Source: Trichomonas vaginalis G3
Lineage: Eukaryota; Parabasalia; Trichomonadida; Trichomonadidae
Length of the DNA: 64,000 bases
Assembly (NCBI RefSeq): GCF_026262505.1
Contig: NC_067208.1
Location: forward strand, 6,271,962 to 6,335,961
Reading direction: 5' to 3'
The first letter of the stretch is position 1. The number at the start of each line of letters is the position of its first letter. Position numbers and translations under genes: made by a program. Positions 29,696 through 60,800 of the stretch are shown piece by piece. The notes under the pieces were generated by a model that did not search any database, was not told the DNA's origin, and worked only from the letters and a program-made list of their open reading frames with translations.

Positions 29696-29827
29696 TTACG
29701 AGTACATATGCTGAACATTTGCAGGCATTGGTTCATCTTCATATTCTCTGTACTTTTCTGCCACGTCAAATAAATAAATGACACAATGGAAAAAACCTAA
29801 AACAAGTAGTCCTATTTCAAACCACAT
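29696..29827 (-). CDS. M1 tiny membrane protein, 43 aa
   Basis: An intact 43-residue frame below the usual length cut-off. Its start (29827) overlaps the end of the methyltransferase by 16 bases. Residues 2-20 (WFEIGLLVLGFFHCVIYLF) form a membrane helix, followed by an acidic tail with Met/Pro. The overlap and the membrane helix make it plausible; it could also be chance. Confidence 0.4.
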   Translation of the reverse strand: MWFEIGLLVLGFFHCVIYLFDVAEKYREYEDEPMPANVQHMYS

Positions 29828-30630
29828 TTACTTACTAATAAAATTTCTTTGTTATGACACTTTCTCCGGTTTATAGGACCTCTCTCATATTCTATCTTGT
29901 CATATCTAAACTCATAGTCATGTATGTCCTCTAACCATCTCATAAAGGTTTCCAAACCACTTTTATCGGATGTAAAGTAAAAGCATGGATGGTTATGTAT
30001 AACGTCTAAAGTTTCTAAAGAGTCTCTCAAAGTCCAGTCTACTTGGTATTGAAAATCCCATGTGTTATAGAACGGCGGGTCCACTATAAAGAAAACATTT
30101 TCCTTGTCTTTATATTTTTCATACAACTCTGTCCAATGACATCTCACAAACTCTATACCCTCAATATATTTTTCTATGTCCTCTTTGAAAACATTTGTAT
30201 AGTTAAGATATAAAACTTTTGACATAAGTGTTTCAATGTCATGAACTCTTATAGAACCACTATATAATAGTCTAGCAGATATACTATCCCAGTCTATATA
30301 TTCTGCTTTTTTCAAAACCTCTCTCACAATATTTTTCTTATCTAATGGTATACGTTCCATCTTACCTATAGGTATCTTTTCTTTTAACTCTTTCAATATA
30401 TTGTTTGTGTCTGGAATATGTTTGAGACGGTCCATATAGTTGTCGAAGTCATTGCATATAATCTTTGAGTCTGGGAATATTGTATGGCACAAATGGGATA
30501 TATGGAAACTTCCACCGAACAAATCTACAAATGTTAGACCATTCGGTAGTTTCTTAAGTTCTCTCAATATAATATCTTTACATCTACTCTTATTTCCAAA
30601 GAACGGTAACGGCGGTTTTGTAAAATTCAT
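29812..30630 (-). CDS. M1 D12-class N6-adenine DNA methyltransferase (Dam-like)
   Basis: Intact, 272 residues. The N-terminal PLPFFGNKSR corresponds to the SAM-binding motif PFxWxGxK of the D12/Dam family, FVDLFGGS is motif I, and VDPPFYNTWDF near residue 185 is the catalytic (D/N)PP(Y/F) motif. The middle region (~60-165) would be target recognition. It would methylate adenine in element or host DNA, protecting it or marking expression. Transcribed inward from the right end of M1, with a TTATTATTATATATAAATGA-like leader. One of the few long M1 genes without a break. Confidence 0.85.
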   Translation of the reverse strand: MNFTKPPLPFFGNKSRCKDIILRELKKLPNGLTFVDLFGGSFHISHLCHTIFPDSKIICNDFDNYMDRLKHIPDTNNILKELKEKIPIGKMERIPLDKKNIVREVLKKAEYIDWDSISARLLYSGSIRVHDIETLMSKVLYLNYTNVFKEDIEKYIEGIEFVRCHWTELYEKYKDKENVFFIVDPPFYNTWDFQYQVDWTLRDSLETLDVIHNHPCFYFTSDKSGLETFMRWLEDIHDYEFRYDKIEYERGPINRRKCHNKEILLVSKCGLK

Positions 30631-31326: not shown

Positions 31327-31628
31327 TGTAAAATACTTAAAAATCAATCACTCAACAAGAAATGTATATTTAATATTGTCGATATTAATTTTGAAATTTT
31401 ATTAAATTTGAAAGCTATAAATCGAATGTTTAGCTTCCCAAGCCAAGCATCAAAAGCTATTTGGAATGTTAATTCCAGTAACATAGATAACACCTCTACA
31501 GAGATAATAAATCTCATTAAAGAGCACAAGATTTCCATCGAATTGGCCCTTAATTTGATTGATATCGCATCAAAATGCCGCTTAAAACAAATTGTTGAAT
31601 ATGAAAATATTTATGAAAAGATACTTAA
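31327..31628 (+). pseudogene. 5' part of ankyrin protein gene, cut by Kolobok-like insertion
   Basis: Open frame from 31327 reading KILKNQSLNKKCIFNIVDIN, then SSNIDNTSTEIINLIKEHKI and EYENIYEKIL up to the TTAA at 31625-31628. This fits the long helical N-terminal domain placed before ankyrin repeats in the large T. vaginalis ankyrin family. There is no ATG at the front (a TAA precedes), so the 5' end is also lost. Reading resumes at 34062 with KEFS in the same sense. Confidence 0.65.
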
Positions 31629-34057
31629 GGATGGGCACTCATTAGGGTGATGAAAAAAATCAAGTCTAGCAAAGTCAATATATTAAAAACAGTGAAGACT
31701 ATTATATAGCATTATAGTGCACAAGCTCAAATATTTAGTGATGCATTTCTCGAACTTATTTTATTTATAAGTTAACCTTGAAACATGAATTTTAGTATAT
31801 CATGAGCATATTTTTTTCTAATTTTGCAATACTTATAATATCATACCAGGATTCATGTGGAAGTCTAATATTTGGTATATAATATTCTTACAATAAATGT
31901 ATTAATTCAATTATATTCAAAATGATGGGTCGCAATTTTTACTGAAATTGCAAATTCAATTTCAACAATGAAATTATTGTTTAAAAAAAATAGCACAACA
32001 GCAAGATGGACAATCATATATAGAATTATAATGCTCCATATAATGCTTTGATTTGATGCGTATATAATGTTATTTTTCGAACATCTTTGTAAAAAATTGA
32101 TTTTTGTAATTTTTGAAAAAATTCGATTTTATTTCGAGATTTCCTCTATAGGTGAAGTATATGGAACAATATTCCTATGGGAGAAAATAATTGTAAGTAT
32201 GAGTACTTTCATTAATACTATGGGTGCCATGGTTATCGCTCAAACGATCAAGTTATATCTCGATTGCGTAAATTGAAATTTTGCTATTTTCTAAATTCAC
32301 GGCAACAACATTCTTTTATTCTGATCGTACATCACAATATTTGAATGTGCGACCATTTGTTCAAGAAACCGTCAAGTTATTCTTCATTTTTCATGCCGCG
32401 GCGAACAAAAGCAGTTGCAAAGCGTATAAAGAACTTAGTTCAAAGCGCGAAAAATAGGGTAGAGCCATATGTCGTCAACACTGTTGAATTTGTGCTATCT
32501 GTATTATTGAGCGGCGCTACATTTTGCCAATCAGAATTTCAATTCATGCTGAATAACATCAAAGTTCCGTCAGAAGCTACATTTCATCGAGTCCAAGAAA
32601 AGGTTGGTCGTGTTATCATAGAAGTTGCCAGAGAATCTGTTAATTATTGGAAATCTCGAATGAGAAAATGTTCGGGACTTTTGTTTGACGGTTCTTGGAG
32701 TCAGAGAAGAAATGCAATGTTTTGCTATGTACAATTTGTAGAAGAGAAACTCAAAAAAATTGTAGATTGGGAAGTGATATCTAAATCTTTTAAAAATTTC
32801 AAAGGTAATTTCAACGGAAAATCAAATGAAATGGAATTTGAAGGCTTAAAAAGAATGCTGAAGCGTTGGAATAATGAAAAACGTGTAAATTTTTTTGTGC
32901 ATGATGGCGATGTCAAAATTGTTTCTACAATCAAAAATACGTTCAAAGGTATCAGAGAATACAGAGATCCTGGACATTTTCTTAACAATATACAGAAAAA
33001 GCTCAAACTGCCAGAATTCAGAATCTTATCTAGCATTTCAAAGAATTTATTGCGTTGGCTTAGGCAACTTCTCAATGACACACATATGTCAATTAAAACA
33101 AAGAAGTTTTTATGGTTGAATTCCGCTAAACATTATGCCGGAAATCATAAATTTTGTCCAGATCCTGAAAAATGCAAGATGATTAAACCATGGAAATATG
33201 CAAAAAATAAAACTGCTATAAAAACACTTAAAAAATTCCTCGAAGATACCGTAAAAATCTTTGATATGGTAAAAAAGATTCATTCAACTCAAGTAGTTGA
33301 ATCGATAAACCATATCAAAGCAATGCTTGCTAATAAAAATATTAATTGGCATGCTTCTTGGCCAATTAGGATGGCAGTCACAATATTGCATTTCAATGAA
33401 AGTATGTTTGAAACGATTGTAGCAATAAGATACAGGTTAAATTTACCAACAATGCCAGAAATGATGAACAGATATTTCAGAATGTATGATACAACAAAAG
33501 ATTTAATCAAAGCATTCAAAAATTCAAAGCAAGTTCAAAAAAAGTTTGCGGCATTAAGAGCTATAAAGAGAGGTCTTCAAGCTACCGATGATCGTATTAC
33601 TCTTAAATCACATAAATAATTATTAAATTTATTTCACCCTCAAAACATCATAATCTTGCACCTTCTTTGAATAAACACTTTCACCTTCTATTTTTAATTA
33701 ATGTTTTTTAATTGTCCAAATTTTTTAGATTATATAGGATATAATTTTTTATAAAAGTATTATTTTCTAAAAGATAAGTATATATTCTTAATCACAAAAC
33801 CTAGCATTTTATCATATCTATATATCAGCTTCCTAAATATAATACTCATATAGTTAGTATGATTTTAATGTTTTTGAACATGAAACGAAAATATGATTAC
33901 AATCATATAACATAATGGAGTTATTGATAAAACTTATATGCATGATACATTAAGAAGTCTTCCAACAATATAGATATAGTTGTAGATTCCTATGATTCCT
34001 TTTATATTGTGAGATAATAACATTTTTATGCTGTCAGGAGCCTATGAGTGCCCATCC
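31629..34057. mobile_element. Kolobok-like DNA transposon, 2.4 kb, TTAA target duplication
   Basis: The left end is GGATGGGCACTCATTAGG and the right end is its inverted match CCTATGAGTGCCCATCC. TTAA flanks both sides (31625-31628 and 34058-34061). Removing the element plus one TTAA joins the two halves of the ankyrin gene in frame (EKIL then KEFS). It carries one transposase gene (32393-33619). TTAA targeting is typical of Kolobok and piggyBac; the transposase does not look like piggyBac. Confidence 0.75.
32393..33619 (+). CDS. Kolobok-like DDE transposase, 408 aa
   Basis: The start at 32393 (MPRRTKAVAKRIKNLVQSAK) lies right after the Inr-like TTCTTCATTTTTC; a longer frame begins at 32345. 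Candidate catalytic residues: D in LLFDGSWSQRRN, D in FFVHDGDVKIV, and E in STQVVESINHIKA. A Cys/His patch (HYAGNHKFCPDPEKC) lies between, as in Kolobok and Mutator-like transposases where a CxxH-type insert precedes the Glu. Intact open frame, so the copy may be young. Superfamily assignment rests on the TTAA duplication plus this motif order. Confidence 0.7.
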   Translation: MPRRTKAVAKRIKNLVQSAKNRVEPYVVNTVEFVLSVLLSGATFCQSEFQFMLNNIKVPSEATFHRVQEKVGRVIIEVARESVNYWKSRMRKCSGLLFDGSWSQRRNAMFCYVQFVEEKLKKIVDWEVISKSFKNFKGNFNGKSNEMEFEGLKRMLKRWNNEKRVNFFVHDGDVKIVSTIKNTFKGIREYRDPGHFLNNIQKKLKLPEFRILSSISKNLLRWLRQLLNDTHMSIKTKKFLWLNSAKHYAGNHKFCPDPEKCKMIKPWKYAKNKTAIKTLKKFLEDTVKIFDMVKKIHSTQVVESINHIKAMLANKNINWHASWPIRMAVTILHFNESMFETIVAIRYRLNLPTMPEMMNRYFRMYDTTKDLIKAFKNSKQVQKKFAALRAIKRGLQATDDRITLKSHK

Positions 34058-34061
34058 TTAA

Positions 34062-34620
34062 GGAGTTTTCATGCATTTTTACTCCATCAAATCCAAAATT
34101 GAATACATTGTTATACAATAAAGGAATCCAAGTTAATTTGAGAAAATCTTTTAGAGAAGAAGATATTCTTGACATTTATCCAAAGGATTCCGCTTTGTAT
34201 TACATCGCTTGGAACAAACTTGATGACCTTAAAAGCAAATTCCCAGATATCGAAGTAAATCCACAGGATCCATACAAATTTTCTCTCCTTGACTGCGCAT
34301 GCAAATTTGGATCTGAACCATGCTTCAATTACCTCAAGAGCAAAGGTGCAGAATATTCCGAAAATGCAGCCAAATATGCTCTCGAAGGCGGAAATAAGAA
34401 CATTGTAAACAAAATGTTACAAGATGGTCAGTCTTTTGAAAGTGTTCTCAATGTTGCAATGAATTTCCATAATTTCGAAGTTGCAGAAATACTTAAATCG
34501 AAGTATGGTCAAACAACATATTCACTTGCCGACAGTTTTCATTTCGGAAACTTTGATTTTGTTGCAGATTTGATCAACAAAGGTGCAAATGTTAACAAAA
34601 TTTATGAAATCTTTCTTTAG
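34062..34620 (+). pseudogene. Ankyrin protein gene, middle part with first repeats
   Basis: Continues the 31327 frame after the transposon: FTPSNPKLNTLLYNKGIQVN, SALYYIAWNKLDDLKSKFPD, then ankyrin units LLDCACKFGSEPCFNYLKSKGAEYS-like and VADLINKGANVNK. The last regular codon is Lys at 34597-34599, after which the frame runs into T-rich DNA and stops. No ATG at the front, because the element removed contiguity. Ankyrin proteins of this family are abundant in T. vaginalis; this copy is not expressible as it stands. Confidence 0.7.
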
Positions 34621-36689
34621 GTAATGAAGTTCTTATAATTTTTATATATTTCATTTGGTTGTTGGATTCATTTGCTCGTCATGAAATTCTCAAAATATTA
34701 ATGGAGTTCTTTTTTACTTTTATATTAATTATTATGTTATTATATTCATTTTCTTTCCATATCTATCTTTGTTTTATCTTATTAATTATTACTTTATCAA
34801 ATTCATTTTCATATTCATATTTATCATTAAGTTTTGAAATTTTTCATTTCTTAATCAAATTCTTTTTACAAAAACTTCACACCACTTTCTATTGCAATTC
34901 AGTGCAACACATTGGACTTTGTCAAATTCCTTGTTGAACATGGCGCTGATGTCAACATGAAAACAATTTCTTTTCGATTTATATTTACCGTTTTTTCATA
35001 CAATCAATCAATGTGTTATAAGATTCCTTTTCCACATATATCTATCATTTTAATATACTGTTCTTTTTCCCAATCATATCTTTCTTAGTTTTATTATATT
35101 CTTTTTCTAATTATGGAATTCTTTTTCATTTCATTGCATTCATTTTCAAATCATATCTTCCATTGTGTTATTCTATTCATTTTCTTCTAACATTTATTAT
35201 TGTTTGATGAAATTACCTTTCTTTTTATATCATTCATAATATCATACAATTCTTTTAATGTCTATATTGTTCTATGTAGATTTATTACATCCCACTTTCA
35301 CTTGCAATCAAGTCGAAATCCTTTGAGATCGTCAAGTTCTTGATTGAACATGGTGCTGATGTAAACATGGAGCTCGTTGATTTTCTTTTAATAGAATACA
35401 TTTTCATTTAATGTATAACATTTTCTCATTTTATTCTATTTCTCTTCATATCAATCAATACTAAATGAAATTCATTTTCCGATTATATTTTCCATTTATT
35501 TATGACATTTATTTTCATTTGATATTAATTATTAAGTCTTACAATTGTTCATCCTTTCATATCTTTCATTTATTGATGAAATTCAATTTCTAATAATCTC
35601 AGCCCACTTGTAATCGCCATCGAAGAAAATTCATTGGAGATTGTCAAGTTTTTAGTTGAACACGGTGCTTCTATCAACAAGAAACTCATCTTTCATTTTT
35701 TCATGGAATTTTTCTTCTATTCATTACATTCATTTCATGCTAATATCTTTTATCTTATTTTAAATTTCTTCTGTGAAATATATCCTTCATTTTTATATAG
35801 AATTTTCTTTCAATATATATGATTACATATCTTTTAACGGAGTTCATTTTCAAAACCTGTAGTTCTTTTTAATACTTATATCTCTCATTTTTATATGATA
35901 TAAATCATTTTAATTATGGAATTAACTATAACTTTGTGACATTCACTGTCTTTTTATATCTTTAAATATGTTTATTTAATTCATTTTCCAATAATGTTTT
36001 CTATTGATTTATGAAATTAATGTAAACTTTATATTGATCATTGTATTATGGAATTACATTTATTTTAATGCTTAACATTTTCTTATGAAATTCATTGAAT
36101 TTTAATGACTGCCCACTCTCAATAGCGATCCAATATTCATCATTGGACATTGTCAAATCCTTAGTGGAGCATGGTGCTGATGTAAACATCAAGTTAGTTA
36201 TTCTTATTCACATAGAATTCATTTTCAAGTTATATCTTTTATTAATCTTATAAAATTCATCTACGATTCATGTTAATCAATTTCTTATGCAATTAATTTT
36301 CAAATCATACTATTCTTTAATAATTCACGTTAATTATTATTTTTATCACATTCTATTTTATTTCATGTTCAATATTACATAATGCCATCTTTTATCTAGT
36401 CATTTCATTCATTTTAATTTCATATTCTTCATTGTTTAATGGAATCCATTATTAATCTTTGGAGTCCTCTTTCTTTTCAAATTCATCATTTTATTATTAT
36501 ATTCTTTTTACATCAATGACATTCCTTTTCTTTGCATGTCTATCATTCGTTTATATAGTTCCTTTTCTAATTATATCAATCATTTGGTTATCAAATTCAT
36601 TTTGATATTATGTCACACCACTTTCTATTGCAAGAGAAGGAAACTTCACCGAGATCGTCTCGTTCTTATCTGTACATGGAGCGCAATAA
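34600..36689 (+). pseudogene. Dissected ankyrin array: five units separated by T-rich spacers
   Basis: Five single ankyrin repeats lie at 34879-34962, 35289-35372, 35601-35684, 36110-36193 (each exactly 84 bp) and 36616-36689 (last, with stop TAA). Each reads like TPLSIAIQCNTLDFVKFLVE then HGADVNMK. Every one starts at the P-L of the consensus and stops after the N-x-K, so the five residues that should join it to the next unit are replaced. The spacers are 279, 326, 228, 425 and 422 bp, very T-rich, and built of words such as ATTCATTTTC and ATATCTTTCATTT. Spacer lengths do not keep frame and lack the GTAYGT/ACTAACACACAG signals of T. vaginalis introns. Confidence 0.75.
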
Positions 36690-37537
36690 TAAAAAAGATT
36701 TTCTAATTCAAGAATCTCATGATTCTTAGATTTCGAACACAAGAGATTTAAACATTAACATCAAAAAAAGCGTTTTTTTATTTGAATTTTTGAGTAATGA
36801 ATCCTTAAAGTTGGAGGACTTGTTATATATTTCTTTCCATTGAATAGTGATAAAATTGCAAGAATTTAGAATGAGATAAAATATTTTAAGGGCGAACTTA
36901 CAACTTTCTCACATTCTCTCAAATTTCCTTGCATAGGCTTTATTTTCTGCTTTTCTTCAGACCTATATTCAGCATTTTGAGAGCATTTCAGAAAATGGTA
37001 AGTGTACCATTAAGGGAACAAAAAGTTTTTTTATCCATAATAATCAATTCTGAATTATTTTAGCATTTTAAAGTAGTATTTTATAAATATGAATGCATGA
37101 GTTACTGGATTTTCTTGTGAGTCACAGATATTACACATAGTTCACAAATTTAGAGTCAATATATTTTCAAAACAATTTTTCTCAATTGGTTTGAATACTT
37201 TTCACAAAATATTGTGAGATCAGATTCAATTAATTATTGTTTCTCATTCTGCTTTATATCATATTTAATAAAAACAGTTTTAAGAAGTTGTGCACTTTTG
37301 TAAAACTTAATAAAGAAGAAAACAATGAAATTGAAGGAAAATTTGACACTAAAAATTTTTCCTTTTTGACTTTTTTTTCCTTATTTTGTTCAGTATGAGA
37401 TTTGTTAAAGTATGCTATTATGCGAGTTTAAGTGGGGAACTTTGATGCTTTTTCCATACAATAGTAGATTCATTCAAGTAAACAATGACTTTATAAAAAA
37501 GTGGTTTATTGAATACTAAAAAGTGACATTTTTTATA
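36690..37537. other. Intergenic stretch upstream of BspA-like gene
   Basis: No gene seen. 36939-37011 holds a ~73-bp sequence (TTTATTTTCTGCTTTTCTTC... ending GGTAAGTGTACCATT) repeated in the same direction at 40301-40374, downstream of the BspA-like gene. The Inr-like AGTGACATTTTTTATA at 37521-37536 precedes the next start. Confidence 0.55.
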
Positions 37538-40374
37538 ATGAAAATTTTATAAGAAATTTCTGATGGTAATAGTCGTGGTGTTGAATTTTCTGCAGATGGT
37601 ACTATTCTCCTTAGAGCTCCAGATACACTTGTTGGTGAATACATTATTCCAGCAAGTTGCACAACGATTAAAGGAGGAACCTCAGCAGATGAAAGTCCAT
37701 TCCGCTTTTGCCGAGACAACATCACATCGATTATTGCTGAACGTGGAAGTCTTCTTTCGAATGTTTGCATCTGTTGTTTCGCTAATTCTGCGCTTGTTTC
37801 TTGTGATTTAAGCCAATGCACAAAATTATTAAATATCAACTATGCAATGTTATACGAATGTAGGAAACTGGCCAATGTTCAACTTCCTCCCAATTGTGAG
37901 ATTTTAAATTCTGGTTCCTTTCATTTCACAAGTTCTTTGCTCAAACTCGAGTTGCCAGATTCTGTAAAAACTATTGCTAGTCCCCATGAGGTCTATTTTA
38001 GAGTTTTTTCAAATAGCGGATTAGAGGAGATAAAAATTAATCCAACATCGAAATTGACTACAATTGAATCTGACTCTTTTGCTGAATCTCATTTGAAATA
38101 TTTCTATTTTCCCGAATTTTGCACAAATGTTGCATTTTCTGCTTTCCAATTATGTCCTATTATTGAATTTTCCTTCCATCCTAATAATAAAAAGTTCAAA
38201 ACAGATGGAACAAGTATATTCATCGGAGATAATAATAACACATTGTTATTTGTAAGTTCTGGCCTGACAGGAACCTATACAGTTCCCAGTTTTGTGACAA
38301 GAATTGAACAATCATCGCTAAGAGGAGGAAGACTTTCAAAATGTATCTTTGGACCTCAAATTACATATGTTAGCACATGGATTTTGTGTTTAAATAAAAT
38401 CACTGAATTCGAATTTCCTCCACAGATGACATCTGTTGCTGAAGCAATGTTCTATGGCTGCAGTTCTTTGACAACGGTGAAATTCACTGATTCAATAGTT
38501 TCGATTCAAAGGCTTGCTTTCTCTTACTGCAGTTCATTGAAAAATTTGACTTTGCCATCAAAATTGAAGTCAATTGGGAATGGTGCTTTCGTAAGATGCT
38601 ATGCTCTAAAAACATTAACACTGCCTGCAGAATGCGATCAAATAGGTGATGCAGTTTTCAGTGAGATTTCAATAACAATCAATTCATTGAACCCAGAGAT
38701 CCAAATAGATAATTATGTTATGTATAAAAACAACCGTCAGACTATCACAGCATATCTTGGATCCGATGCCTCATCAAATATTGTAATCAACAAGAGCTGC
38801 ACATTAATTGGCTCAGGCGCATTTCAATCAAAGACATTTTCACAAGTTACATTTGACAACAACGAAATGATCAACATCTCTTCTTATGCATTTGCTTCAT
38901 CAACGATCAAATCAATAACATTTCCATCCGGATTAAAGAAGATTGAACAATATGCATTCAGCAATTGTAACAACCTTGTTCGTGTTTCATTTCAAGGTTC
39001 CCAAATTACAGAGATTCCTGATTATTGCTTTTACCAATGTCCTTCATTGTCACAAATTGTTCTCCCATCTTCAATCACAAAGATCGGAAACTATGCATTC
39101 CGAGAATCTCCAGTCATTGGCGACATCGGAATATCAAATCTTAATAGTCTTTCGAGCATTGGCATTTATGCATTCTATCAAAGCGGTCTTACCACAGCAG
39201 ACATCTCAAGCCAAAGTCACACTATTGGCATGCAAGCATTTGCACAATCTAAACTTGAGAATCTTACTCTTGCATGCAACATTTCGCAACAACTTTGCTA
39301 ACGCTGTACATCCTTGAAGAATTTGCAAATGAAGAGTGGTGTTGAATATATCGATGTTTATGCATTTGATGGTTGTTCATCTCTCACAGGTTTCACCATT
39401 CCGAAAACACTTACAAAAATACTTAACTTTGCATTCCAATCTTGCTCATTACTATCCAACATCCGAATGGTTTCCGATTGCACATTGAACTATTGTGCAG
39501 GTGGTGCCTTCTATGGCTGTTTCAATCTTAAGACAATCACACTTAACCCTAACGACAACAAATATTTGTTTGAGAACGGTGCACTCACAGATCGCGACCA
39601 GACTATTTTATACTTCTTCCTCCCATACAGTGGTGTCAAGAACTTTGCTGTTCCTACCGAGATGATCACTATCGGCAACTGTGCATTCATGGGTAGTCCA
39701 TCTCATCAACGAGTTTTCTTCAGTGGCAGCAAGATCCGAGAGATCGGCTACCAAGCGTTTAAAGACTGCATAAATCTCAATTTTATCTTCTTCTCATCAT
39801 CCAGTCTCACTAAGATTGATAACGAAGCATTCGATGGCTGTCCCTATCTTAAGAAATGCGGTTCATTTCAAGCACCGACAGCACTTCAAGAGAAACTTAT
39901 TTCCATCAATATCCCAAAGACTGCATTTTCCGATGATTGTGATCTATCAATAACTTGCAAACCTATCATGCGATTTTCATTCTCACTAGCAGTTCTTACA
40001 CCTTTTATTTTAATGTAAACATTTATTCATACATACTTTTTCATCCTTTAGATGTCATTTTAAAGATCTTTGAACGTGTCAAATTTTGTTTTAGAAAAAT
40101 TTTGCTACCAGAATCATTTGCTCAACCATTCTTTCAATACTACTTTCGCAATATCCGCCAGGATTTAATAATTATAATAACCTAGCCGAGAAAATATTAG
40201 TAAATATAAGGCTGTCAAATCACATTCTAAACCGATGTTGAATATTTGAGAATACAAATAAGAATATTGTAAATTCTAAATAAAATTTCCTGACATACGT
40301 TTTATTTTCTGCTTTTCTTCAAGCCTGTATTCAGTATTTACAGTGCATGTCAGAAATTGGTAAGTGTACCAATT
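36939..40374 (+). repeat. ~73-bp direct repeats flanking the BspA-like gene (36939-37011; 40301-40374)
   Basis: Both copies read TTTATTTTCTGCTTTTCTTC, then an imperfect CCTRTATTCAG, then a near-palindrome around GGTAAGTGTACC. They differ at about ten positions. They lie ~0.5 kb before and ~0.3 kb after the 37538-40018 gene; only the two ends of the stated interval are repeat. Confidence 0.7.
37538..40018 (+). pseudogene. BspA-like leucine-rich-repeat surface protein, in-frame stops
   Basis: About 820 codons of TpLRR/BspA-type 23-residue repeats with the pattern F..CSSLKNLTLPSKLKSIG and repeated YAF.NC. One start at 37538 (after an Inr-like AGTGACATTTTT) meets a stop at codon five, yet the same frame is open from 37553 (EISDGNSRGVEFSADG). 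A TAA at 39299-39301 splits the gene; the second part (39314-40018) continues in the same frame. The C-terminus has a short hydrophobic end (FSFSLAVLTPFIL) that may be a remnant of the membrane anchor. BspA-like proteins are a large T. vaginalis family of surface and adhesion candidates. Confidence 0.82.
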
Positions 40375-40695: not shown

Positions 40696-41999
40696 TAGGG
40701 TGTCCAAAGGTGTGTTTAGCACAAACCTGAATACTGCGAATAGAAATAAACAAGTTACATATATATAAAGTTTATTTAAATATAATCACCATTGGATTCA
40801 ATCACGCGTTCGCAGCGATCGATCCAGGCTTGAAAGACACGCTTTAAATCATCATGAGAAAATTGCTCAAATTGCTCTCTTACAAAATTTTCAAGATCAT
40901 CTGGACTCGCGAATTCGCGTCCTTCAGCTCTCTTTTTTAGCGTGCCGAATAAATAAAAGTCAGAGGGTGCAATATCAGGTGAATAAATTGGGTTTGGAAC
41001 AACTTTGACATTGTTTTCCAACAAGTAATTCATTACCTTATGACTTTTGTGAACTCTTGAATTATCAAAATGAATTGCAAACTTTTGTTTTTGTTGTTTG
41101 GATTTCTCAAACTCATCAGAATTGATAATTTGGGTAAGAACATTGTCAATTAGATACTGAGCATTCATCGTATTAGGTTTTTGAAGAATATCAATTGCGA
41201 TGATGCCATTCACGCCCCAAAAAACCGACAACATCATCATTGGTGTGTCAATTTTTTTCTTCGGGAATGTTTGCGGATTTTCATCCTTCGGGATCCACAT
41301 GATTTTGGCTTCTGTTGCATATTGAAACCAAGACTCGTCCCCTGTTACTAAAAAGCGAAACTTCTTGGATTGATACGCACCCAATATAGAGAGGAGCTCT
41401 TTCGAAGATTGGACTCTAGATTTTTTTTGAACTGAATTAAGGTTGTGCGGAACCCAACGTGTATACGCTAGTTTGTAGTTCAAATAATTGTGCAGATAAT
41501 AACTGACTGTTGTACGTGGTATCTTTGTCATCTCCTCTATCCTTCTGAGTGATGCTCTTGGGTCTTCATCTAGCGCTTGAAGAATTGCTTTGATTTTTCT
41601 TTGATCCGGCGATTTTTTGTCAATTTTTATGATGGGCGCCTTTTTGTTCATGAAGTGATACATCCTAACACGATACGTTACAGTGGAATAGCTAGGAGCA
41701 TCCATACCGAAGCATTTTACCAATGTCTCGTAGATTTTTTTACAGTCTTTGCAATTTTTTGCAAGAGCGAGGATGTTTTCTTTATGATTCATTAAAAAAA
41801 TGAAAAAAATCCCGCCAAAATTTCCCGCGAAACCGCCTCTTGTCTCAAAATTCATTTTATATCCCGGCATGGCGCCAAAATACAACATACTCATCATATA
41901 CATATATTCATATTTTTTATTATATATTTATAATCAGCATATATCTCCTTTAATAGTCTCATATAGAGCGCTGTGCTAAACGCACCTTTGGACACCCTA
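40696..41999 (-). mobile_element. Mariner transposon copy 1 (Tvmar1 type)
   Basis: 1304 bp, with ends TAGGGTGTCCAAAGGTGYG and its complement, flanked by TA (40694-40695; 42000-42001). It sits in the left terminal repeat of M2; the uninterrupted sequence is seen in the right repeat near 54430. Contains one intact transposase gene. Confidence 0.9.
40776..41792 (-). CDS. Mariner transposase, intact
   Basis: 338 residues from the Met in MNHKENILALAKNCKDCKKI (41792), which follows TCATTTTTTTA, an Inr-like leader; an open frame extends to 41903. Helix-turn-helix region in the first ~115 residues (KIYETLVKCFG; RIEEMTKIPRTTVSYYL), then the DDE/D core: VTGDESWFQYA, IHFDNSRVHKS and YSPDIAPSDFYLF. The last carboxylate is Asp with 34 residues between, the D,D34D pattern of mariners. 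Intact frame, near-identical second copy at 44546, so transposition was recent. Confidence 0.9.
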   Translation of the reverse strand: MNHKENILALAKNCKDCKKIYETLVKCFGMDAPSYSTVTYRVRMYHFMNKKAPIIKIDKKSPDQRKIKAILQALDEDPRASLRRIEEMTKIPRTTVSYYLHNYLNYKLAYTRWVPHNLNSVQKKSRVQSSKELLSILGAYQSKKFRFLVTGDESWFQYATEAKIMWIPKDENPQTFPKKKIDTPMMMLSVFWGVNGIIAIDILQKPNTMNAQYLIDNVLTQIINSDEFEKSKQQKQKFAIHFDNSRVHKSHKVMNYLLENNVKVVPNPIYSPDIAPSDFYLFGTLKKRAEGREFASPDDLENFVREQFEQFSHDDLKRVFQAWIDRCERVIESNGDYI

Positions 42000-44338: not shown

Positions 44339-45641
44339 TAGGGTGTCCAAAGGTGCGTTTAGCACAGCGCTCTATATGAGACTATTAAAGGAGATATATG
44401 CTGATTATAAATATATAATAAAAAATATGAATATATGTATATGATGAGTATGTTGTATTTTGGCGCCATGCCGGGATATAAAATGAATTTTGAGACAAGA
44501 GGCGGTTTCGCGGGAAATTTTGGCGGGATTTTTTTCATTTTTTTAATGAATCATAAAGAAAACATCCTCGCTCTTGCAACAAAATGCAAAGACTGTAAAA
44601 AAATCTACGAGACATTGGTAAAATGCTTCGGTATGGATGCTCCTAGCTATTCCACTGTAACGTATCATGTTAGGATGTATCACTTCATGAACAAAAAGGC
44701 GCCCATCATAAAAATTGACAAAAAATCGCCGGATCAAAGAAAAATCAAAGCAATTCTTCAAGCGCTAGATGAAGACCCAAGAGCATCACTCAGAAGGATA
44801 GAGGAGATGACAAAGATACCACGTACAACAGTCAGTTATTATCTGCACAATTATTTGAACTACAAACTAGCGTATACACGTTGGGTTCCGCACAACCTTA
44901 ATTCAGTTCAAAAAAATCTAGAGTCCAATCTTCGAAAGAGCTCCTCTCTATATTGGGTGCGTATCAATCCAAGAAGTTTCGCTTTTTAGTAACAGGGGAC
45001 GAGTCTTGGTTTCAATATGCAACAGAAGCCAAAATCATGTGGATCCCGAAGGATGAAAATCCGCAAACATTCCCGAAGAAAAAAATTGACACACCAATGA
45101 TGATGTTGTCGGTTTTTTGGGGCGTGAATGGCATCATCGCAATTGATGTTCTTCAAAAACCTAATACGATGAATGCTCAGTATCTAATTGACAATGTTCT
45201 TACTCAAATTATCAATTCTGATGAGTTTGAGAAATCCAAACAACAAAAACAAAAGTTTGCAATTCATTTTGATAATTCAAGAGTTCACAAAAGTCATAAG
45301 GTAATGAATTACTTGGTGGAAAACAATGTCAAAGTTGTTCTAAACCCAATTTATTCACCTGATATTGCACCCTCTGACTTTTATTTATTCGGCACGCTAA
45401 AAAAGAGAGCTGAAGGACGCGAATTCGCGAGTCCAGATGATCTTGAAAATTTTGTAAGAGAGCAATTTGAGCAATTTTCTCATGATGATTTAAAGCGTGT
45501 CTTTCAAGCCTGGATCGATCGCTGCGAACGCGTGATTGAATCCAATGGTGATTATATTTAAATAAACTTTATATATATGTAACTTGTTTATTTCTATTCG
45601 CAGTATTCAGGTTTGTGCTAAACACACCTTTGGACACCCTA
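44339..45641 (+). mobile_element. Mariner transposon copy 2 (Tvmar1 type)
   Basis: 1303 bp, TAGGGTGTCCAAAGGTGCG at the left and its complement at the right, flanked by TA (44337-44338; 45642-45643). Inserted in the M2 capsid gene and in the orientation opposite to copy 1, with which it is nearly identical apart from a one-base deletion and a few substitutions. Confidence 0.9.
44546..45561 (+). pseudogene. Mariner transposase, one-base frameshift
   Basis: The same protein as 40776-41792, but an A run has 7 bases here (44910-44916) against 8 in copy 1 (T run 41421-41428), which shifts the frame after NSVQK. The catalytic blocks TGDESWFQYA, HFDNSRVHKS and SPDIAPSDFYLF remain in the second frame. 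Start taken at MNHKENILALATKCKDCKKI by analogy. Confidence 0.9.
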
Positions 45642-54824: not shown

Positions 54825-57800
54825 TTACATAATCTTATCTAACCATTCGAAGGTAGATCCTTCGAGAGTGTGCACTGGAGGAGTGATTTCCAGCAAATTG
54901 TCGATGATTTCTTTTCTTCTCTCGAATATTTTCAGACGTAAATCGGAAAGAGTTCTGTCTGAGCAAACAATTGCTGTGTCCAAAACAGCAGACAAAGAAA
55001 GAGATGATTCAGCGAGTGCTGATGTAGCTGCAGCAATTCCAACTGACATAACCTCTTGAGAAAGAGGACCCAATAAAGCTTTAAGTGGCTTTGGAATTCT
55101 GCAAACAAAGTTTGATGACTTTCTCAACAAAACTTTGTTTCTTTCAGTGAAGAAAGATGCACTCGAAGGAGAAATAAACAAAGAGTTATCTTGTAACTCT
55201 AAAATCGCTTTAACAGCGTAGTTTGCTGATAGAGATCTTGTAAGAGCAATTCTTCTTTTGATCAAGTCATCTTTGGAATTCGATTTAGAAACCAAATAAT
55301 TTTCTGCTCTTTGACAATTTTCATCTGATTCATCCTCTAAATTCAACAAATCACCGAGTTGTTCGTAACACGAAGAGAGAACAGTCATTGTATATAATAC
55401 CTTGCTGTCGGATTTAGACATTTCGTGTGATCTAAGTTCGTAAGTCGAACTTGTTCCGAATTTAAATCCTCTGATACTTGTTACATAACAAGAATTGAAA
55501 ATAGAATTAATACAACCAAACAAATTCATTACACTGATCTCGTGGTGATTGGAAACAGTGTTCCTGTGGATTAAAATTTGTCTCTTCATGCAGTTATCAT
55601 TGATAAACTCAATTAAAAGTGAGTGATCTTTCAAATGACAAATTTTTCCTGTCAAACGATAAATTGTTGATGTTTCCAAAGTACTCGGCATTCTGGACGG
55701 AAGAGAAAGCGGGAATTCTCTATTACATAGTTCCAAATGTGCATTGAAACGTGTGGAAATGTCAATAAACTTTTCAAATGACAAATTCCTTTGTGAAATT
55801 ATTTCTCTAATTTCCTTCAATTTCTTGGAATCATCATTGATAATTCCAGGATTTGCCAGGTACAAATTAATCATTCCTTGTTCATTAATTCTACAAATAA
55901 ATTTGGATTCATTTATCAAATCAATGTATTCTCCAAATTCATTGTAAATGAAACTAGCAAAACGAGACATCATCGGTAATGGTTTTAATATTCTGTTCTC
56001 AACATTAAAATCTTTTCTTGCGAATTCAGCAATTTGAAGCAAAGGATCACGACCTTTTGTTTCCATCATCTGATGATTGCAGAAATTATCAATATTCGAA
56101 CGAATAATTATATTGTTTTCTCCTGTTATCAGCAATTGTTCAATCCACATGAACAAATGACGGTAAACATCATCTAGTTTTATCTCAGAAGCAATGTCAT
56201 ATAAGTCTTCAAGAGATTTTCCACAAACAACAATTGTAATTAAAAATACAATTCGTGATGCACTTTCGTATTTCTTCGCCAAAGTGTAATTTCCATATTT
56301 CAGATAATGTATGTATATATTAATGCATTGAGATACAATGGATTTGTCTTGGGACCTTCTTTCCGAAGATAATTCGAAAATTGTCGCCAAAAATCCACCC
56401 CACAATCTGAAATTTTCTGGATTCGATGTGTCTTCTAAACCAACCCTCAAAGCATTGGAAATTCTTTGGGAAGTAACAACGATTTGTCCATTCTTTGTTT
56501 CGCCAACAATTACTTTAACTAAAGGTGCAAATTCCTGTGACAAAACAATATAATTTCCTTCTTCTTCTTGTGAAGTGATGTCAAGTATTGAATCTTTCTT
56601 AATTTTCCTTTTCGCTTCTGTGTAGATCTTAAAGAAAGCTGAGTTGAAAGGAGAGAAAGGTTGTCTCATTCTATCAATCTGGGAATCGTTTTGATGTTGG
56701 TAAAATGACAAAATATTTTGTAACAAAACAAATCTTTCGGAATTCATAATAGAAGGAGCTGCTTTTCTCAATAACAAATAGTAAATGTTCATGTCTTTGA
56801 TCTTGTCAACATCTACTTGTGCATCTTTGTTCTCTCCTTCATTTAGAAGTTTCGCAATTGCATCAACAGAAAAATTGACACTTCCTAAAATTCTTTGTAA
56901 GAAATCCGAAATGTTTTCGTTTTCTCTCATTGTCAATCTCTCCGAACAACTCATGAACAAGTTAACGACATCTGTAGTTTCTATCTTTGGATCATCAACA
57001 TGTAATAATCTGTAACTTTCTTCGAAATTTCCTAATAAATAATGAATTGCGCCTGCAACAAAGTTCTTTCCACATTTTGCGAATTCGTTTATGTATTTCG
57101 CGAATACGAAATCATTTATTTCATGTGGCATGACCATACTTGCTGTTGGTAATTCTTCATCGAATTTATAGAGATTGTTCAAAGAAATTGATAAATCTCC
57201 TGTTTTCTTTGTAGCTTTGAAAGCAAGTTTTGTATTAATAATCAAATCACTTTGTACAATGCTTATTGTTAATGCTTCTAACACACCAGTATGTATGATA
57301 TGCCTTTGTATACTTAACAAGACATTTTTCAATAAAGCGACGATTATTTCCGAGTCAATTTCAATTATTTTCTTAAAAGTGTAAACACCAATTGAAATTG
57401 ATGCTCTATGGCCAATACACGTTGCCAAAGCAGCCAACTGTGTCCAGAACTCGAAATCCTGTGGTATTACTATTAAACAGAGCACAGTCAAGTATTTGTC
57501 GCACCAAAAGAAAGGCGGCAAAAATGAAACTAAATTCATCATTCTTTCATAAGGAGTTTTTCCTGTAATTTCCTGACATTTCTTCAAACATTTGATTCTC
57601 GAACTTGGTGTTGCTTGCATCGAATAAGCAATGAGCATTTGGAGGCTATAAGGTGCTAATATATCCGACATTTCAGGTGTCGAGTTCAAATTCATTGAGA
57701 AATGAACAGAAATATGAGGAATTGTCACATTATAAATCATGACTAATTCAATGATTTCTTGGAGAATTAAAATCTTTGCTTTTGTGCAGATTTGTTGTTG

Positions 57801-60800
57801 CAAATTCATTACGGAAGAATTCACAAATAACTCTGCATTCTTGAGACTTTCTTTTGCAATATCCGCAATGATTTGGGCATATGCTGTTTGGTCTTCTCCC
57901 AAATAGTTAATTTTTGTTGTCAACGTGTAATAATTTCCTGGAGATTGCTCGCCATTTTTACATTTCTCCCAAATCAAAGGTATCCATGACAAATCTATTT
58001 TTCCAAATTCGATGAGTTCCAGAGCTAAAAATAACATTGGAAGATCGAGTTTTGGATTTTCAACATCTAAAGACTTCATCCAATTCTCGAAAACTTTGAA
58101 ACAATCATCAACTAAACCATATTTCGCGAGACATTGTTTAACAAATTTTTGAGGAATATCGTTTAAAGCTTGCAACAAATTTGCGCTTGCTTTGAAATTG
58201 TAAAGTGCTTGTTGGACATACTGTTTATCGAAATCATAACCATTTGCAATGAAAAAGATCAAGAAAGCGAAGAAGATTTGATCTTTTGGAGATTTCATGA
58301 TGACAGATTCTATCAATGGTTTATAATTAATTGGATCAGTTTTCAATGCCAGGTAAGGAATGAACTTAATGAACATCTTCTCACGAGCTTGTGGAGGATT
58401 GTCTTGTGCAGATGTCAACATTTTATTGACATGACTAAAGATTAAATGGCTTCTAAGTATTTCATCGTATTCATTTTGAGAAATATGTATTCCTAGTTTG
58501 ATATCTCTCAAGAAAATATCGATGTTTCTTGTTCTTCCTTCATCTTTGAAGAGATTTCTAAATATAGAGAAAGGCAAACATTTTTGAAGACTTGGAACTT
58601 CTTTGAACAAATCATTGATGCGGTCAACTTCTGTGCTTTCACAGGAATTCTGTATCAATTTATCTAAGACACACGTGTGAACAACCTGATGAATTACAAA
58701 GGGAACAGGTTCGAATAAATCCGGTCTCAAATTTAGGAATTCTCTGATTTTTCCCATGAATGCAAATTCAGATCCATAATGGCAAGCGATCAACAAAGAA
58801 CTGATCTCGATATAGACTTCATCTGGCATGAATCTCTTCTCGCATAAACTGATGGAAATTTCGAATGCGTGGACAACAGTTTCTGAATCAATTGATCCGA
58901 AAATTTGTGGCAATAAAACCATCAGTTTCGTGTAGATTTCGGAATGAATTGTATAAGGATGGATAATTAATTTGGTAATCAATAATGTGCTGGGAATCAA
59001 ATACTTGTCAGTTAATGACAAGTGATGTGAACTGACATCACAAATATTTTCAATTAAATCTGGTGGCAAATCTTGGATATCATTGATTTTTTGGAAGGGA
59101 ACAACTAATGATCTCCAGCTTAATTTGTCCCAATCTTTAGCTATGTCGTCGATGAATTCAATCCTCTTGGAATTAGGGATTTCGTTGTATCCGTTCTCGT
59201 ATAAAACGGATAATTCGGAATTTGACAACATTGGAATTTCGTAAAGTTGTGAAATGACAGAAATGTCAGAAAATTCTGGATTTTCTATGAAAGAATTAAT
59301 CAAAGCACATCCTGTGTAATAGCAAGCCATTGGAGATAATCCAATTTCTTTAGGAGTTTTTTCCTTAAAGATATTGAAATAGAAGGAAAACAGTTGTTTC
59401 GAAGTACTCTTCAATTTCGGAATTTTTGCAATTTTCTTGTCTTCAGAAACAGTCTTTAGAATGCCTAAATAAACAGGATTCTCAACATATTCTTTCGAGC
59501 ATTCTTCAAGTTTCTCCAAGAACTTATTTATAAAGTTCTCATTACATGTTGTCAAAATAACGTACTCAAAAATGTGACAAATTTTTGGAGAATTGTTATT
59601 TGTAAATCTGAGAGTTTCGCAAACTTCGTTTGGATAATAAACAATCATTTCAGACATCAACTGTTTGATGGATGAATACTGGATATAAGGGTATTCATTG
59701 ATTTTCGCGAGATCCTCAATAAAACTCCTAAATTGAGGTCCGAAATTTCTTCTGAAATCAGGATTTTCGAAATCTCTTGGTTTGAAATTATTTGATTTCA
59801 AGATTTCTTTTACAGGCTCAGGATCCATAGGATTATTTGCGAGTTTCCTGACGAAAGCGAAAACATTGTTTGTAGTATCAATCATTGGAGGATCTTGTGG
59901 CACCAAAAAGTCTCTTAATTTGATGACTTCAGGTATTTGCAAAATTTGTGGAATTTGTCTTGCCAAAATATTATTCATGAATTTTGGTTTGATGTTTTGG
60001 TTGTCTTTATAAGGACCAATAACGAAACACAAGAACAACAAATAGAACAAATACATGTTCCTATAATCCTTTTGATTCTTAGATAATTCCATGATCAAGT
60101 TATCAATGATTCTTTCATCGTTTACCTGCAAAAACGGACTGTTAAATCCACAAACCAAACAAAGACAAATCTTAAATGATTTGATAATTAATGATTCGTT
60201 CTTTAAACCATCGGCTAATCCATCGATATCGATTCTGCAGTTGACACCTTTAAGAGCCTTGAAAATCTCTTGTTGGAACATCATGTAATGCCTATCATAT
60301 TTGCATGTGTAATAAAGATAATCAATGTATTTCTTCACTTCACTTGGATCAGAAGATTCTATCGTCGACCTCACAATTTTTCCAAAAGTTTTTGCACCTT
60401 GTTTTACAATTTTAATGGAAGGATTAACGATAGCTGCTGTTATATTGATAAGTTCTTTTGCACCTATCAAATGGGGAAAAACTTTCTTTATTGCTGTGCA
60501 AGCATTCATGAAACAAAAGAATTCATAAGTATTATAATAATAATTCATGTGATCAATGATTTTCTTGACAATTTCATCTTGTACTCCTTTTGATTTCATG
60601 TCTTTAAGGAAGTTAAATACTTGGTATAGTGTGAAATGCTCAGTATAACTTTCCAAATGCATAGAAACAGAAATCAAAGATAAAAAGTAGATGTCATTGC
60701 CACCTTTGCAAATAATATCAGCAAAATAATCATTCAAGTTCTTGTACATGTCCATGATATGATTATGCATTGCTTTAAACTTGCTTAAATCAGTGGCAAT

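Follow-up and report, generated by a model that had tools for sequence, protein, structure and literature searches.

Among the intervening sequences known from the genes of Trichomonas vaginalis are its spliceosomal introns. As described in the sections of the intron survey considered here (PMC12316389), there are 63 active introns, all of them GT-AG, occurring singly in transcripts, 23-196 nt long and carrying an extended branch motif. The same sections report that RNA-seq mapping gave thousands of junctions per library, mostly with GT/AG dinucleotides, and that junctions in regions without known motifs, 99.7% of the questionable ones, were dropped (PMC12316389). Both intron types, A and B, resemble the spacers described here in being AT-rich non-coding DNA within genes, and ankyrin genes are among their carriers (PMC12316389). 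The spacers differ in occurring several per gene, with a unit spacing of 181 to >1,200 bp, in the absence of the intron motifs and in their 37-bp tandem repeat. Euglenids, a different eukaryotic group from T. vaginalis, provide a further comparison. As far as the cited excerpts go, their nonconventional introns vary in length, as our spacers do, and have unconserved borders and, often, direct repeats at the junctions (PMC4770533, PMC6221363), two features that the spacers show at some loci and lack at others. In the same excerpts, a stable RNA structure brings the ends of the euglenid introns together (PMC4770533, PMC6221363), whereas the T. vaginalis spacers fold weakly. The spacers are, moreover, known from DNA, and their removal is a step that we infer. 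Expressed pseudogenes of T. vaginalis, in the cases considered from PMC4223856, are like the locus studied here in that it is a broken gene in a family-rich genome. Unlike those pseudogenes, the split-ankyrin units keep constraint and recur at dozens of loci in the same phase. Among annotated proteins, exon 1 of the locus belongs to exactly the family of DUF3447/ankyrin proteins of ~280-300 aa recorded as 'hypothetical' (e.g., TVAG_340900). Records of this type end in the first spacer, and the downstream ankyrin units lie outside the proteins compared. No paper on this arrangement was found in the open-licence PMC literature, outside of which most subscription papers lie.

The window is a 64,000-nucleotide stretch of contig C6 of the 180.9-Mb genome of T. 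vaginalis G3. At positions 34879-36686, four ankyrin units of 84 bp are followed by a terminal unit, all five sharing their consensus start position, and the original prediction had given their coordinates and lengths correctly to one base. The features of the locus are listed below, numbered by window position. The spacers are read as decayed 37-bp arrays from their alignment to a 37-mer concatemer and their fit to a window-specific 37-mer, and the start of spacer 1 is set by the end of exon 1 at K 34599, where the tblastn match ends.

31423..31630, + strand: 5' piece of exon 1 of a DUF3447/ankyrin-type gene (tblastn with exon 1 of three relatives, E 5e-12 to 9e-17; 40-51% identity)
31631..34054, + strand: Mutator-like transposon within exon 1 (terminal inverted repeats, arms 88% complementary)
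32345..33619, + strand: 424-aa transposase ORF of the Mutator-like element (PF20700 Mutator, E 9.4e-10)
34064..34599, + strand: 3' piece of exon 1, ending ..GANVNK (PF12796 4e-8, PF11929 DUF3447 2e-7; tblastn 41-49%)
34600..34878, + strand: spacer 1, 279 bp, read as a decayed 37-bp array
34879..34962, + strand: ankyrin unit 1, 84 bp, Pfam PF00023
34963..35288, + strand: spacer 2, 326 bp, read as a decayed 37-bp array
35289..35372, + strand: ankyrin unit 2, 84 bp, Pfam PF00023
35373..35600, + strand: spacer 3, 228 bp, read as a decayed 37-bp array
35601..35684, + strand: ankyrin unit 3, 84 bp, Pfam PF00023
35685..36109, + strand: spacer 4, 425 bp, read as a decayed 37-bp array
36110..36193, + strand: ankyrin unit 4, 84 bp, Pfam PF00023
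36194..36614, + strand: spacer 5, 421 bp, read as a decayed 37-bp array
36615..36692, + strand: terminal unit, coding part 36615-36686, ending HGAQ, then TAA TAA; clusters with units 1-4

Each of the four 84-bp units matches PF00023 with E values of 1.7e-6 to 3.5e-6, while the shorter terminal unit gives no Pfam match. The spacers contain stops in all three forward frames. The reported pairing of good ankyrin consensus in the units with stop-filled spacers is borne out by the Pfam matches and the stops. The reported N-x-K ending holds for some of the 84-bp units, the others ending in N-x-E, and the terminal unit ends in GAQ. Four of the five spacer lengths agree with those first given, and the fifth, given as 422 bp, measures 421 bp.

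Exon 1 of the window copy is interrupted by the Mutator-like element, and its frame resumes at 34064, 2.4 kb past the 5' piece. The reading frame is thus disrupted, as in a plain pseudogene, a break that the original prediction had overlooked. A 9-bp target duplication, with copies at 31622-31630 and 34055-34063 that differ at one position, flanks the element; these copies and the ends of the element were read by eye. The insertion looks recent, because the transposase ORF is still open and the duplication is nearly intact, and a recent insertion would explain good-looking units within a dead gene. The window contains several other features. A BspA-type leucine-rich repeat gene lies at 37847-40018 on the + strand. 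Its first ORF matches LRR_5 (E 1e-78) and is followed immediately by a second, LRR-like by eye, in a different frame; the two are perhaps one interrupted gene. Two near-identical Tc1/mariner-like transposase copies lie ~3 kb apart in opposite orientation, at 40776-41903 (-) and 44435-45561 (+); the first matches PF01359/PF13358, and the second, judged by eye to be alike, is broken into two frames that overlap. A 272-aa ORF with a DPPF motif at 29812-30630 (-) has no Pfam match at 0.01 and presumably resembles an adenine DNA methyltransferase. A single open frame of 2,810 aa occupies 54825-63257 (-). Mutator-like elements such as the one in exon 1 have been described in T. vaginalis, according to the part of PMC2725143 considered here.

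The window copy is one member of a large T. vaginalis split-ankyrin gene family, which may exceed 100 genes. A DNA search of the genome gave at least 179 matches (40 of 365 candidates scored), and a search at the protein level with the 3' piece of exon 1 gave at least 151 (150 of 1,519 candidates scored). Thirty exon-1 loci were chosen by similarity to the window and are thus a non-random sample. All 30 have two or more 37-mers downstream of exon 1, none of them on the reverse strand; upstream of exon 1, no 37-mers were found in the 30 loci over distances of up to a kilobase. Isolated ankyrin units follow exon 1 in 28 of the 30 loci, all on the same strand and none on the opposite one, and in the same phase as in the window. 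The suggestion that the window might hold a single odd pseudogene, with no other locus arranged in this way, fails against the same architecture at these loci.

Within the DNA examined, there are 1 to 22 isolated units per gene, each of 84 bp and encoding one 28-residue ankyrin repeat. Scored with a nucleotide profile, 164 units divide into 148 intact, 5 terminal ones with a stop, and 11 damaged, 6 of the damaged ones belonging to duplicate arrays on C3 and C4. Each of the five terminal units has its stop among the final four codons of a 26-codon span; other array ends (e.g., L073, L074) stop slightly later and are counted as intact, and many array ends lie outside the DNA examined. In at least five loci, the window included, the array closes with a terminal unit whose stop directly follows HGA. 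The duplicate arrays (C3:5673-5681 kb and C4:29831-29839 kb, L015-L032) are nearly identical, with 22 units each and the same damaged units, and probably represent a recent segmental duplication of a decaying family member. Exon 1 encodes ~270 aa in most members (DUF3447/ankyrin), mostly ends in ..NGxDINK and then runs into the spacer, and the public protein records of the family end inside this first spacer. Four family proteins from public contigs (P0086, P0104, P0077, P0102) begin or end with adapter-like peptides, which we take to be typical of sequencing adapters, so these termini are probably artefacts. For a coding tail anchor at the end of exon 1, codons 3-13 after N show a weak pattern (0.27/0.21/0.29, computed from 24 of 27 exon-1 ends), and this reading was set aside.

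The spacers of the window are built on a 37-bp period. Their autocorrelation peaks at lags 37 (z 8.1), 74 (z 7.1) and 111 (z 3.9), with sub-periods of 20 and 57. All five align almost full length to a concatemer of the 37-mer with 65-70% identity; all 60 dinucleotide shuffles scored lower, and no such alignment was obtained for five further AT-rich stretches in the window. The T-rich words first noticed in the spacers are real in that about half of the bases are thymine, but this periodicity sets the spacers apart from arbitrary T-rich DNA. Genome-wide, the 37-mer occurs 8,755 times and its reversed control 0 times (33 bases as query, up to three mismatches). A window-specific 37-mer, built from the other four spacers in each case, fits each of the five better than the family 37-mer does. 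This fit to the locus's own variant shows common ancestry of the window spacers within the locus; comparison of the spacers, proposed as a check that might find them unrelated, thus found them related. TRF reported no array of 37 bp for the window, which is unsurprising given that the copies have diverged. Judged by these alignments, the window spacers are decayed arrays of a locus-specific 37-mer variant.

A 37-bp step is also evident in the spacing of successive units across 26 loci. Of 104 spacings, 57 equal 181+37n bp exactly and 71 fall within 2 bp of that grid, as compared to 14 expected. Once the near-identical C3 and C4 arrays are removed, 40 of 62 spacings are exact. Exact spacings range from 181 to 1,217 bp, the largest being those with n = 27 and 28. 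All four unit-to-unit spacings of the window lie off the grid, as expected for decayed arrays. The 37-bp periodicity and 181+37n spacing are those of a minisatellite, a tandem array of one unit in variable copy number. The expansion of low-complexity DNA at the inter-repeat junction, one of the processes originally put forward, takes the precise form of arrays of this 37-bp unit. Spacer lengths show no preference modulo 3 (40/35/29 among the 104 cases), and a frame-preserving spacer length was rejected on these counts.

The anatomy of the arrays shows modular amplification of unit plus spacer, with array lengths changing by whole 37-mers. Amplification of this kind had been offered as another source of the arrangement, and three observations in the window agree with it. 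In a tree without the C4 duplicate array and identical rows, the units of the window group with their terminal unit in a single clade (support 0.926, only 69 bp). A spacer end together with the following unit start is repeated in the window at 80% over 54 nt. Taken together with the locus-specific 37-mer, these observations suggest that unit and spacer were most likely copied jointly, before the units diverged. The unit divergence that carries the coding signature would then have come after the copying. Gene conversion from unspaced copies would be an escape from this dating; limited searches found none.

The units, but not the spacers, are shown statistically to be under protein-level purifying selection. 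Among the window units, codon positions 1, 2 and 3 differ at 0.24, 0.14 and 0.50, as compared to 0.46-0.47 in the flanks. A neutral simulation with the flank mutation spectrum places position 1 highest and position 2 about equal to position 3, unlike the window units. Codon models give omega values of ~0.2 for the window units (2dlnL 20.0), ~0.2 for C5:15.46 Mb (2dlnL 20.2), 0.3 for C5:6.37 Mb (2dlnL 9.8) and 0.4 for C2:14.14 Mb (2dlnL 5.5). Taken singly, 4 of 12 loci reject omega = 1 and the other 8 lie at 0.4-1.0 (13 chosen loci on fixed trees, one with too few distinct units for a result). Pooled tests give 2dlnL values of 57.4 for 14 units of four old loci and 10.3 for 21 units of six further loci. 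Pairwise pN/pS, pooled over units without stops only, is 0.34 both within the window and between loci; many single loci lie at 0.65-1.07, and the C3/C4 arrays reach ~2.

Counts of changes within 36 loci, 24 of them with variation, agree with the codon models. Synonymous changes number 116 versus 73 expected (p 1e-7), and replacements in the ankyrin core, at positions chosen according to the ankyrin consensus, number 39 versus 111 expected (p 1e-16). These p-values assume independent changes in loci found by similarity and are strong rather than exact. An earlier count, which included other flank frames, covered 23 of the 36 loci and was repeated on all 36; a flat mutation spectrum gives the same outcome. 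If the window, C5:15.46 Mb and both C3/C4 arrays are excluded, synonymous changes number 74 versus 50 and core replacements 34 versus 78. The within-locus tests take intact units, which contain zero stops by construction. No synonymous excess was found in the 13 codons on either side of the units (after-flank 53 vs 64, before-flank 45 vs 63). In the before-flank, synonymous changes are too few (p 0.009) and stop differences exceed the neutral model, which indicates that this model is not exact. Constraint is clearest in the window and at C5:15.46 Mb, yet exon 1 is broken at both loci. The remaining units of a plain pseudogene would carry no constraint, and the 36-locus count and the omega of the window units show that it is present, although 8 of 12 loci singly fail to reject omega = 1. 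The observation is real and repeated genome-wide, and plain decay does not explain it. The notion that the spacers are removed by some mechanism gains indirect support from the confinement of constraint to the units, and removal itself is the inferred part.

Several explanations of constrained units between unreadable spacers were weighed. It is extremely unlikely that the spacers are ordinary spliceosomal introns of T. vaginalis. As AT-rich DNA between coding pieces in phase 0 they would suit this role, and a permissive criterion, a GT no more than 6 bases from the 5' end and an AG equally close to the 3' end, is satisfied by 18 of 112; GTWYWD lies within 12 bases of the unit end in 6 of 148 cases. 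However, GYAYGY is present at 0 of 148 unit ends, the strict 3' splice motif at 0 of 36 loci and a relaxed branch site at 0 of 148 unit starts, and canonical introns were rejected on the absence of the strict motifs at the 148 units. The length, single occurrence and uniform GT-AG borders of the known introns, as given in the survey sections cited above (PMC12316389), also argue against this explanation. Spacer borders are alike in younger loci, possibly by descent. The old loci show no clear conserved border motif, which is hard to square with precise splicing; position -1 is 88% alike within loci. Folding of 32 of 68 eligible spacers (60-340 nt) gave no consistent RNA fold joining the spacer ends (0-22 end-to-end pairs; z averages -0.84, with four spacers reaching -2.2 or below), and euglenid-like folded introns were rejected. 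Translation of the spacers, by stop read-through, ribosome hopping or a mini-ORF per unit, is very improbable as well. A few members do have spacers that are open by chance (P0108), but the flanks lack a synonymous excess in any tested frame, spacer lengths ignore the reading frame, and the case studies considered from PMC4223856 exclude stop suppression in T. vaginalis. Both translated spacers and unit-plus-tail mini-proteins were rejected because the synonymous excess is confined to the units.

The main rival to spacer removal is that exon 1 alone is the gene, its frame stopping in the first spacer, and that the units are untranslated relics. Their similarity would then reflect recent amplification and gene conversion, and their coding signature an earlier contiguous state. 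This explanation is unlikely on balance, though it has a real claim. Of the 107 relatives found, 88 are named NCBI records and 76 have a C-terminal hydrophobic stretch, as compared to 4.7% of internal 12-residue windows; in 17 of 30 loci the exon-1 frame closes no more than 8 codons from the aligned end. When young loci are tested one by one, most fail to reject omega = 1, and the C3/C4 arrays are damaged. Against relics, constraint is seen among units that diverged inside loci with old, locus-specific spacers, and it persists after the oldest loci are dropped. Contiguous copies able to carry the selection were not found: in a search with window unit 4, all 150 scored matches (of 1,687 candidates) lie in open frames of 43-235 aa, and a narrow pattern for adjoining 28-residue repeats gave one match, which proved to be an ordinary 33-residue ankyrin gene and was rejected. 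A further, distinctly doubtful, explanation is that the units are cassettes, either donors that recombine into a rearranged expressed gene or pieces joined in it at the DNA level, with short direct repeats guiding the joining. In 43 of 99 spacers, the unit end (GATGTTAAC-like) agrees with the stretch from -12 to -4 ahead of the next unit at no fewer than 7 of its 9 bases, as compared to 0.45% in the background; 21 of the 43 cases belong to the two duplicate arrays, and 22 of 67 spacers outside them match. Module amplification and array homogenisation likewise imply active recombination. However, neither the window nor several other loci show these direct repeats, the arrays are preceded by an exon 1 of their own, and limited searches found no contiguous expression site.

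The reading that we prefer, and hold at about an even chance, is a split-ankyrin family whose spacers would be removed before translation, probably from RNA. A DUF3447/ankyrin exon 1 is followed by isolated 84-bp units separated by 37-bp minisatellite arrays, and unit and spacer have amplified as a module, presumably by unequal exchange. The spacers would be taken out most likely at the RNA level, in the absence of the GT-AG and ACTAACACACAG signals that mark the introns known in this species; the window copy was later disrupted by the Mutator-like insertion in exon 1. Several results weigh against this reading: the old loci lack a conserved border motif, folding is weak, the C3/C4 arrays combine a pN/pS of ~2 with damaged units, 8 of 12 loci singly do not reject omega = 1, both loci of clearest constraint have a broken exon 1, the neutral model is inexact, and the public protein records end in the first spacer. 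Non-canonical junctions in the 37-bp arrays, if they exist, would have been discarded by the motif filter described in the cited sections of the intron survey (PMC12316389). A wider proposal is somewhat less probable than this reading and is put forward tentatively. T. vaginalis would have a second, unrecognised removal of intervening sequences, in which 37-bp minisatellite arrays of up to >1 kb are excised precisely between 84-bp single-repeat exons in the absence of GT-AG and branch-site signals. The products would be ankyrin proteins of variable repeat number that could grow by unequal exchange. If the units are joined, many recorded proteins would be truncated and T. vaginalis would have a new excision process; if they are unjoined, there would be the puzzle of coding selection on unreadable sequences.
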